Shown here one piece after another: positions 12,291 to 60,416 of a DNA stretch of 64,000 bases (the stretch's first letter is position 1; each line of letters starts with the position of its first letter). The DNA comes from Pseudomonas sp. MUP55. GTDB lineage: Bacteria > Pseudomonadota > Gammaproteobacteria > Pseudomonadales > Pseudomonadaceae. The notes under the pieces were generated by a model. That model was not told the origin of the DNA, searched no databases, and saw nothing but the letters and a program-made list of their open reading frames with translations. The stretch spans positions 2,666,001-2,730,000 of the forward strand of contig NZ_CP138214.1 of the NCBI RefSeq assembly GCF_034043515.1, written 5' to 3'. The translations under genes and the position numbers were made by a program.

Positions 12291-12384
12291 AAATGTGGGA
12301 GGGGGCTTGCCCCCGATGGCGGTGTATCAGTCAACTATGAATTGACTGGACCACTGCTATCGGGGGCAAGCCCCCTCCCACATG
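12291..12384. repeat. REPIN, array unit 0
   Basis: Inverted REP arms (ATGTGGGAGGGGGCTTGCCC and complement) with a 50-base spacer containing GTATCAGTCAACTATGAATT. It starts 34 bases after the transporter stop. It is followed by AACGCCGCGTATCTT, a match to the left arm of the terminator at 13077-13115. Confidence 0.9.
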
Positions 12385-12450
12385 TGTTTGGTGGTGCTGC
12401 TGAGGCTGTATTCCAGGGATAAAACGCCGCGTATCTTCAGCTTGCGGTTC

Positions 12451-12538
12451 GCTGCGATGGGCTGGATGGCGATTACTACTCTGGTTTACTTGCTGGCTGC
12501 TTAAGACCTGACACAGCCTGCAAAGACTACAGAGACCC
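12451..12538 (+). pseudogene. Decayed copy 1 of the transporter 3' end
   Basis: This stretch reads GCG ATG GGC TGG ATG GCG ATT and ends CTG GCT GCT TAA. It aligns codon by codon with the last 17 codons of the transporter (MGWMAITTLVYLLAA against VGLVAITALVYSLIA) and continues into the same 34-base post-stop sequence. It has no start and is not a gene; it is part of a 248-base tandem duplication. Confidence 0.75.
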
Positions 12539-12632
12539 AAATGTGGGAGGGGGCTTGCCCCCGATGGCGGTGTATCAGTCAACTATGAATCGACTGGACC
12601 ACTGCTATCGGGGGCAAGCCCCCTCCCACATG
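12539..12632. repeat. REPIN, array unit 1
   Basis: Near-identical to the unit at 12291-12384 (period 248), with the same spacer motif and the same downstream GTGTTTGGTGGTGCTGCTG tail. Confidence 0.9.
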
Positions 12633-12693
12633 TGTTTGGTGGTGCTGCTGGGGCTGAATTCCAGGGATAAAACGCGGCGTATCTTCAGCTTGC

Positions 12694-12781
12694 GCTGCGA
12701 TGGGCTGGGTGGCGATTACTACCCTGGTTTACTTGCTGGCTGCTTAAGGCCCAACACAGCCTCCAAGGACTACAAAGATCC
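12694..12781 (+). pseudogene. Decayed copy 2 of the transporter 3' end
   Basis: Same arrangement as copy 1 (GCG ATG GGC TGG GTG GCG ATT ... CTG GCT GCT TAA). It is closer to copy 1 than to the functional gene end, which implies that copies 1 and 2 arose from each other or from a different allele. Confidence 0.75.
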
Positions 12782-12875
12782 AAATGTGGGAGGGGGCTTG
12801 CCCCCGATGGCGGTGTGTCAGTCAACTATGAATCGACTGGGCCACTGCTATCGGGGGCAAGCCCCCTCCCACATG
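12782..12875. repeat. REPIN, array unit 2
   Basis: Third near-identical unit (period 243), again followed by GTGTTTGGTGGTGCTGCTG and a terminator-arm remnant (TAACGCCGCTTATCT). Confidence 0.9.
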
Positions 12876-12939
12876 TGTTTGGTGGTGCTGCTGAGGCTGT
12901 ATTCCAGGGATAACGCCGCTTATCTCCAGCTTGCGTTTC

Positions 12940-13060
12940 GCTGCGATGGGCTGGGAGAGACCCAAATGTGGGAGAGGGCTCGCCCCCGATGGCGGTGTAT
13001 CAGTCAACTATGAATTGACTCGACCACTGCTATCGGAGGCAAGCCCCCTCCCAACATTTG
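12940..13060. repeat. Truncated array unit 3: 16-base gene-tail remnant plus degenerate REPIN
   Basis: GCTGCGATGGGCTGGG (12940-12955) is what remains of the gene-tail copy; about 61 bases are missing relative to unit 2. The REPIN (12964-13060) has several mismatches (GGAGAGGGCTCGCC and ATCGGAGGC), so it is probably the oldest unit or one no longer under homogenisation. Confidence 0.8.
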
Positions 13061-59070: not shown

Positions 59071-59191
59071 TTTTGCACAATCAATGTGGGAGCAACTGTC
59101 TTATTGGATTCAATTCAGAAGTCATTTTCATAGGCAGCAAAGCTCCCACAGCTTAGGCCGTGCAATGCTGAAGGAAATTGCTGCTACCGAG

Positions 59192-60124
59192 CTAATCGGT
59201 GCGCTCTTTCCATTCAGTGCGGTCACGCAGCATCGCGTTCAGACGTACCAACAAAACGCGCATACAGGCGATCAACGCGACTTTGGCGCATTTCCCTTTA
59301 TCACGTAGCGCCTTATATCGAGTCCCGAATTCTGGCTGGTCACGGATAACCACCCAACAGGCCATGTAAAGTGAGCGACGGGCTGAAAACCTTCCGCCAC
59401 TAATATGGCGTGCACCTTTATGCCTTCCGCTGTCGTTGTTGTACGGAGCGAGGCCCGCTAGTGCCGCGATAGGGCGCCCTCCAATCTCTCCCAGCTCAGG
59501 CAGGTAAGCCATAAGACTGGTGGCAGTAACCAGCCCGATTCCTTTGACTGAACACAGTCGAGCCACCTTTTCGCTATCTAACTCGTTCGCACTTTGACGA
59601 ATCAGTTGATCTATCGCCTCCACTGCCACGGTCAAATAGTCGATATGGTTCTGTAATGCAGGCTTTACCGCATCGCAGGAAGCTGTTTTCAGGCGTCGTC
59701 TGTCGTCATCTCTTTGCTGAACAAAATGCTCCCGCTGCTGGACCAACGCGCGCAGCTTATCGTGCTCCGGGCTTGTAACTCGGGCGCTTGGCGAGTCTAG
59801 AACAGCTGCATAGTGCGCAAGAGACTTTGCGTCTATCGGGTCGGTTTTGGCTTGTTTGCCCATCGCCCTGGAAAAACTCTTGGCTCGGTGCGGATTGATG
59901 CAGATGACATCAAGGCCCGCAGCCTGAAGCGCCTTCATGACTTTGCGCTCATAACCGCCAGTAGCCTCCAATACCACGCGACCAACCTGGTGAAGCAATA
60001 GCCACCCAATCAACCCAGGGAAATCTTCTTCGGCGTTAGCGCAATTTACCCCAACGTCAACCTGATTAACTCGAGCCTCAAGGCTGTCCTTGGAAACATC
60101 AATACCTGCTGGATAGGAAAACAT
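59192..60124 (-). CDS. IS110-family transposase (DEDD recombinase)
   Basis: A 310-residue protein. The RuvC-like DEDD residues are D9 (GIDVSKD), E53 (LEATGGYE), D95 and D98 (KTDPIDAK). The C-terminal Tnp20 domain has GIGLVTATSLMAYLPELG and the likely catalytic Ser region LAPYNNDSGRHKG ... HISGGR. It appears intact. ATG 60124 has AGGA upstream; TTG at 60130 is an alternative. Insertion is guided by a bridge RNA in characterised members. Confidence 0.93.
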   Translation of the reverse strand: MFSYPAGIDVSKDSLEARVNQVDVGVNCANAEEDFPGLIGWLLLHQVGRVVLEATGGYERKVMKALQAAGLDVICINPHRAKSFSRAMGKQAKTDPIDAKSLAHYAAVLDSPSARVTSPEHDKLRALVQQREHFVQQRDDDRRRLKTASCDAVKPALQNHIDYLTVAVEAIDQLIRQSANELDSEKVARLCSVKGIGLVTATSLMAYLPELGEIGGRPIAALAGLAPYNNDSGRHKGARHISGGRFSARRSLYMACWVVIRDQPEFGTRYKALRDKGKCAKVALIACMRVLLVRLNAMLRDRTEWKERTD

Positions 60125-60132
60125 AGCCAAAT

Positions 60133-60333
60133 CCTCTTACACTTAATGTGAGAGCGCTCTGGCTTGGCCCACGCTTGTAACTGTTCGAGGTGGGCTCGTT
60201 CAACTGTTCGGGCTCATGTCCAGAGCGGAGAGGTGAGTAGCAGCGTGGGCTCCCACACGTGCTTTAAGCACTCGGGGCATTCAGCTTGCTACTCACCGCT
60301 CTCACCCTCAGTCTAATCCTGGCTCAAGACACA
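60133..60333 (-). ncRNA. Putative bridge RNA of the IS110 element
   Basis: Read on the minus strand. Loop 1 is closed by GGTGAGTAGC/GCTACTCACC (60288-60297 and 60232-60241), with an inner hairpin GTGCTT/AAGCAC (60259-60271). Its 5' side holds GCCCC (60278-60274), identical to the target side GCAAGCCCC. Its 3' side holds TGTGGGAG (60257-60250), complementary to the other side CTCCCACA. Loop 2 is closed by GCTCTGG/CCAGAGC (60226-60220 and 60162-60156) and holds ACAGTTG (60207-60201) and ACAAG (60178-60174), matching the element's own ends (AGACAGTTG and CTTGTGTC). This is the target- and donor-loop design of IS110 bridge RNAs. Confidence 0.7.
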
Positions 60334-60335
60334 AG

Positions 60336-60416
60336 GGGGCTTGCTCCCGATGGCGGTGGTTCAGTCGACTAATCCAGTGGCTGACAGATGGCTATCGGGG
60401 GCAAGCCCCCTCCCAC
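60336..60416. repeat. Remaining part of the REPIN split by IS110
   Basis: GGGGCTTGCTCCCGATGGCGG continues the REP cut by the element; the second arm (ATCGGGGGCAAGCCCCCTCC) is complete. The nine-base beginning of the first arm lies on the far side at 59082-59090. Confidence 0.88.

Follow-up and report, generated by a model that had tools for sequence, protein, structure and literature searches.

The stretch of DNA analysed here, referred to as the window, comprises 64,000 nucleotides of the Pseudomonas sp. MUP55 genome. On its minus strand, positions 59093-60335 are occupied by an IS110-family insertion sequence of 1243 bp, which interrupts a REP and carries a recombinase (transposase) gene with a structured non-coding left end upstream of it. 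The features are as follows (window coordinates; hyphens in sequences set off the core):

59093-60335, minus strand: IS110-family element, one CT core being counted in the 1243 bp (11 copies aligned; flanks joined by script to give empty sites)
59192-60130, minus strand: recombinase (transposase) reading frame, 312 amino acids from a TTG start, ATG being the third codon (ORF list; Pfam, NCBIfam and PDB matches)
60145-60305, minus strand: predicted bridge RNA, a covariance-model match (fold, consensus, covariance model)
60274-60282, minus strand: left target guide GAATGCCCC (7/9 identical to GCAAGCCCC; covaries in relatives)
60250-60258, minus strand: right target guide GTGTGGGAG (complementary to CTCCCACA; class agrees with the target in relatives)
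60248-60249, minus strand: target-loop handshake position, CC (placed by analogy with IS621)
60201-60207, minus strand: left donor guide ACAGTTG (identical to the element's right end)
60174-60178, minus strand: right donor guide ACAAG (complementary to CTTGT of the left end; unchanged in 17/17 aligned sequences)
60172-60173, minus strand: donor-loop handshake position, CG (CG in 75/76 readable copies)
60334-60335, minus strand: CT core, left end (read directly; copy alignment)
60310-60315, minus strand: -10-like hexamer TAGACT, 17 bases from TTGCTT after end joining (junction sequences)
59091-59095, minus strand: right-end TTG plus CT core, the first five bases of the -35-like TTGCTT (junction sequences)
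60336-60351, minus strand: left part of the interrupted REP, ATCGGGAGCAAGCCCC (read directly; copy alignment)
59084-59090, minus strand: right part of the interrupted REP, CCCACAT (read directly; copy alignment)

The recombinase contains the domains PF01548 (9.8e-22) and PF02371 (3.4e-14) and scored 207.4 bits against NF033542, 'IS110 family RNA-guided transposase' (cut-off 140). It also matched the solved structures of ISCro4 and IS621 in the PDB. As compared by eye, the protein combines the DEDD/RuvC and Tnp (serine) recombinase parts of the IS110 bridge-RNA family, its catalytic D, E, D, D and S aligning with those of ISCro4; the roles of these residues are as given for IS621 (PMC11208158). 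All organism-named relatives among the matches listed belong to Pseudomonas (22/22 loci in one such set). In-frame TGA codons in the transposases of G010, G156 and G262 turned out to be ordinary stops, the match simply extending beyond them.

The genome holds 11 full-length, near-identical copies of the element, with six variable positions among them. All 11 interrupt a REP at ATCGGG(G/A)GCAAGCCCC-CT-CCCACAT and have one orientation relative to it; the original prediction had named copies at unrelated sequences as evidence against it, and none was found. At the left junction of the window copy, read on the minus strand, the flank GCAAGCCCC is followed by the core CT (60334-60335) and then TGTGTCTTG..., and at the right junction ...AAGACAGTTG is followed by CT (59091-59092) and CCCACAT. 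The AG (CT) is kept at both junctions, as had been claimed, and the CT core is present at both element ends and in the target. The exact 17-mer GCAAGCCCCCTCCCACA, corresponding to the target GCAAGCCCC-CT-CCCACA, occurs 1031 times (513 + 518) in the 5.95-Mb genome, so that the 11 copies occupy about 1% of such REP sites. That the element is programmed for abundant REPs is supported by these 11/11 copies and by the guide-target covariation described below; the original figure of 'hundreds' of sites was right in pointing to an abundant target and too low as a number.

A reading frame of at least 60 codons spans the site at 8 of the 11 insertions, in GC-rich DNA. The flank read showed a clear inverted REP partner for 9 of the 11 copies, a degenerate one for L010 and none for L011; a preference for paired REPs was dropped, since, of the window's 18 REP-like sites (at most three mismatches), 16 also have a partner at a distance of 72-73 nt. 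Tandem arrays of REP pairs with a spacing of about 180-250 bp were seen at window positions 12294-13055 and at L195, the G188 empty site. At L031, L032 and L033 of the same genome as the window, the match to the element is confined to the terminal 34-56 bp of its right end, the rest being missing. At L131 (G228) and L168 (G265), incomplete copies of the element lie in tandem or nested; an N stands close to a junction in each, and they are perhaps assembly artefacts. A plasmid search returned 2400 matching records, none of them reaching 60% identity.

The gene upstream of the window copy was recovered in all six genomes searched. In G188 it is followed by an intact REP, CCAATGTGGGAGGGGGCTTGCCCCCGAT, where the window carries the element, and what appears by eye to be the same downstream gene lies further along. 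The element was absent from the 700 bases shown at each of seven loci beside the upstream gene; the G121 locus has one REP of the exact type and the remaining five have none by the pattern used. Looking in relatives for the element at REPs and for empty sites, as the original prediction had proposed, thus gave an intact REP in G188 and, as set out below, guides that track their targets.

The left end had been predicted to fold into two bulged stem-loops on the minus strand, and this was borne out. The minus strand of the left end has a predicted folding energy of -87.6 kcal/mol (z -4.41), which none of 200 shuffled sequences matched, and the consensus fold of 17 aligned sequences from 16 genomes consists of an outer stem and two bulged hairpins. 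A structured RNA with two internal loops therefore lies in the left non-coding end, as in the IS110 bridge-RNA family. In statistics that benefit from having been computed on the alignment that also yielded the structure, standard pairs make up 98.5% of the cells across 43 pairs, both sides have changed in 10 of the 43 (shuffled mean 3.5; 0 of 500 shuffles reached 10), and pairing falls to 29-48% when partner columns are slid by one to three. Further pair types in the 17-sequence alignment were no more numerous than in shuffles (18 vs 19.7). At gathering scores, nothing in the window matched Rfam, and a covariance model was consequently built here from 15 of the 17 aligned sequences. It matched at E <=1e-8 in 36 of 398 Pseudomonas genomes, the present one among them, and locates the RNA at about 60145-60305, that is, within the 203 bases (60133-60335) originally assigned to it and not over their whole length. 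The donor loop of the window's own clade (window 60179-60210) has CGAACAGTT twice, the second copy being missing in the remoter aligned sequences.

For IS621, the 5' side of loop 1 is described as equal to the left target and its 3' side as the complement of the right target, with loop 2 doing the same for the element's ends (PMC11208160). The window copy reads in the same way, and what had been claimed for its two loops holds. In loop 1, the left guide GAATGCCCC is identical to the left target GCAAGCCCC at seven of nine positions, the last five being exact, and the right guide GTGTGGGAG complements CTCCCACA, its AG pairing with the CT core. In loop 2, ACAGTTG and ACAAG match the right and left ends by direct reading, and hence the joined ends; the former is constant in 16 of the 17 aligned sequences (G156b differs at the last base) and the latter in all, so that this nearly invariant loop leaves little scope for a covariation test. 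The core enters the guides as the AG of the right guides. After the left guide, in a fixed register, stand GA, AA, CG or AG, never CU, and left donor guides likewise have no CU after them; relatives with CG in this place could still pair the first core base. IS621 is described as having the core in each of its pairings, which we treated as a property of that element and not of the whole IS110 family.

The 86 loci examined yielded, from 85 of them, 86 RNA copies in 35 genomes, with 21 distinct guide pairs; the present genome entered with one of its 11 copies. The remoter elements L161-L166, L169-L172 and L174 were excluded for lacking CTTGTGTCT at the start of their left ends. A full, N-free left target was available for 81 of the 86 copies (five were dropped) and a right target for 69. 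For permutation, a guide string was taken as 13 nt, spacer bases counted in, and each different string was used once, paired with its commonest target. Left guides agreed with their targets at 82/108 positions over 18 distinct strings in a fixed register (shuffled mean 69.7; 3 of 20,000 shuffles reached this), and at 90/108 when three registers were allowed in data and shuffles alike (shuffled mean 74.7; 0 of 20,000, kinship being uncorrected). An earlier permutation on few elements had been weak (287 and 940 of 20,000), and its left-guide test was superseded by the larger set. The class of the right guide equalled that of the right target in 67 of 69 copies (CCCAC 62, CCTAC 4, TCCTA 1), and right guides for CCTAC or TCCTA stood at such targets in all five copies read. 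The loop 1 guides thus match both target strands and covary with them, the very point on which the original prediction could have failed.

Among the individual cases, G018 has the guide CATTCG at the target GAATTCG, G342 has AGCCAG at GAGCCAG, and G126 has AGCGCG at AAGCGCG with the register shifted by one base; G161 carries a right guide for CTTCCTA, and G127 and G374 carry right guides for CTCCTAC. There were four exceptions. The guide of G165 ends in G, yet its three copies all lie at CCCC-CT; the target of the G188 copy (L115) is short of one C and matches at 3/9 in the fixed register; the right guide of G156b is CCCCC at CCCAC (2 of 69 copies); and the G117 target CTCTACCCG fits its guide poorly (3/6). 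Two RNA copies of G402 have the right guide CATAC, and no right target was read for them.

We are highly confident that the element belongs to the IS110 group of transposons and uses RNA-guided recombination to insert into REPs. Guides and targets might instead agree merely through common descent with the host lineage, no guiding being involved. Kinship does bear on the data: C-type guides form one clade (98/97), so that the change at position -1 counts about once, the shuffles make no correction for it, and the within-host test described below is weak because left and right repeat types are linked. Against this, CCTAC right guides occur in two separate clades (G374 and G127) and TCCTA in G161, and in G342 the left guide and the donor-loop handshake base differ together, both fitting its target, which makes mere inheritance very improbable. 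Scarcely any weight falls on a target set by the recombinase or by folded REP DNA, with the loop matches a by-product of captured REP sequence: REPs are palindromic and some relatives' right ends (L167, L173) contain REP-like sequence, but the two sides of the loop correspond to opposite strands, the pattern of bridge-RNA guides and not of a single captured REP, differences in the targets are accompanied by differences in the guide bases with stem pairing kept, and the CCTAC and TCCTA guides lie where they should in 5/5 copies.

Under RNA-guided insertion, the guides can be compared with the repeats that each host offers. REPs ending CCCC-CT or CCCG-CT were counted in 17 genomes, 13 of which have at least 100 sites of both together; in 12 of the 13, the left guide ends in the base of whichever type is commoner. 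The sole exception, G165, has a ratio of 290:16 for C, a G guide and 3/3 copies at C sites, so this base is not strictly read. In the recombinase tree the nearest row to the C-guide clade is G165 (83/75, weak), and since the C-guides form one clade, the agreement between guide and host repeat rests on about one change. On the right side, CCCAC and CCTAC were counted at AAGNCCG sites. Genomes with CCTAC guides are richer in CCTAC (G127 352:24, G402 94:51, G374 495:190, G126 29:0). Seven genomes with CCCAC guides were counted: G000 (7:2), G262 (194:2), G219 (298:3) and G228 (1064:6) are richer in CCCAC, G318 is even (396:393), and G289 (61:203) and G265 (361:432) are not CCCAC-richer.

These last three genomes hold CCG-CT repeats both with CCCAC and with CCTAC, and their guides are CCCAC. 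All eight distinct sites read are CCCAC (G289 three, G318 four, G265 one), which has a chance of about 0.003 by sampled abundance in what is a weak test. Stretches were fetched for this purpose (20 of G318, 20 of G289 and 12 of G265) and every CCG-CT-CC(C/T)ACA in them was counted, giving CCCAC:CCTAC ratios of 44:53, 23:28 and 74:18, respectively. The AACCCG sites, which bear most insertions there, are nearly always CCCAC already (17:2, 10:2 and 10:0, in the same order), so that left and right guide effects are inseparable within hosts; the result is a choice between repeat families and not a separate right-guide effect. AGGCCG-CT-CCTAC, the commonest CCTAC family (36/97, 22/51 and 18/92 of the sampled sites), accounted for none of the sites read. 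Across L268-L319 of these genomes the repeat families are linked, AACCCG-CT going with CCCAC and AGGCCG-CT mostly with CCTAC. Guides may evolve stepwise after the REP type of each host lineage, in that an element would settle despite a one-base mismatch (as in G165), its guide would then mutate (as in the window's clade), and the donor-loop handshake would follow later or never. We see the case for this sequence as evenly balanced; 'settle first, adapt later' is a reading of the data, not a proof.

In IS621, each right guide is followed by two bases that, once the strands have been exchanged, pair with the other partner, and handshake bases that pair with their own partner are reported to hinder the exchange (PMC11208158). 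The corresponding donor-loop bases here are CG in 75 of the 76 readable copies (10 of 86 were unreadable). Before the core, the targets of those 75 copies have CG in 67 and CC in 8, so that the last donor-loop handshake base is mismatched at C-type targets, the window element included. In the remaining copy, G342, the target has AG and the donor-loop handshake is CT, which fits. In the target loop, the handshake pair presents a C opposite the last G of the donor in 69/69 copies, and both bases fit in 29/69, a group that takes in all nine copies with altered donor ends (G018, G374). The C of the donor-loop handshake can here also pair with its own donor G, a configuration of the kind that, by the same report, hinders exchange in IS621.

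Joining of the ends would bring two promoter-like hexamers together. TTGCTT arises from right-end TTG, core CT and left-end T, followed by 17 bases and TA...T, in 17 of 18 distinct junctions. In G018 the right end is longer by one base and the left end shorter by one, giving TTGGCT-17-TAATGT, and its sister in the tree, G374, has TTGGCT-17-TAAGGT. The -35 hexamers match the consensus at 3/6 positions (G018, taken from its TTG, at the same first three) and the -10 hexamers at 3-5 of 6. In inserted copies TTG is replaced by CCC or CCG (TCG in G018). Judged from sequence, the circle junction would thus carry the rebuilt promoter known from the family. We propose that the element leaves as a circle, in which the joined ends would rebuild this promoter (TTG + CT + T, 17 bases, TAGACT) and give rise to a bridge RNA of roughly 160-170 nt. 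Loop 1 would then pair with both strands of the REP target GCAAGCCCC-CT-CCCACA and loop 2 with the circle junction ACAGTTG-CT-TGT, and the recombinase would join the two at the CT core. Insertion would separate the promoter halves again, and a settled copy would be quietened. The guides would suit a repeat that occurs about a thousand times in the element's own genome; a transposon aiming at its host's own repeat can gain about as many target sites, and these may also be safe ones.

The element resembles IS621, as described in PMC11208160 and PMC11208158, in its recombinase family, the RNA in the left end, the target loop preceding the donor loop, the REP target, the same-sense left and antisense right guides, the CT core and the circle-junction promoter. 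It differs in a predicted outer stem that closes both hairpins, whereas IS621 is described with a 5' stem loop (same sources), in the missing CU after the left guides, in right guides that match 7-8 nt as against 4 in IS621, and in the REP itself. IS110 elements in Pseudomonas REPs were already described in 2006 (PMC1525189). ISPpu9 and ISPpu10 of Pseudomonas putida are IS110-family elements inserted at one REP point (7/7 copies each) with a two-base repeat at the junctions (PMC1525189, PMC8450116), a likeness drawn from published descriptions. A figure legend names ISPpu10 as one of the elements in which loop pairing with target and donor was inspected (PMC11208160). For Asr9 and Ssr9, RNAs of ISPpu9, the 2021 interpretation was that they regulate expression of the transposase (PMC8450116). 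ISPa11, for which seekRNA-guided insertion into a Pseudomonas REP is described, is of the IS1111 type, with its RNA downstream of the transposase gene (PMC11187229), whereas the structured RNA here lies upstream, which sets the element apart from the IS1111 group.

Bridge-RNA IS110 elements in Pseudomonas REPs are therefore known; less familiar is a natural series of guides that differ along with REP types, and no paper on bridge-RNA guides following host REP types was found among titles and abstract openings (preprints not covered). Relatives that differ by one to a few guide bases, at correspondingly different repeats, form a natural reprogramming series for a programmable recombinase, and offer ready material for measuring how far mismatches are tolerated, whether the left guide must pair with the core, and how the handshake rule operates. 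In the elements of G117 and G127 (L167, L173), a complete REP-like sequence lies in the right end, between the stop codon and the terminal ACAGTTG. G188 also carries a second IS110 element (L161-L166) with a 39% identical recombinase, located in another interspersed repeat of the approximate form ...CTCGGTGTGCC-CT-CACTCCGGC; two strings in its RNA region, GTTGTGCCCT and GTGAGTGAG, fit that repeat target by eye.
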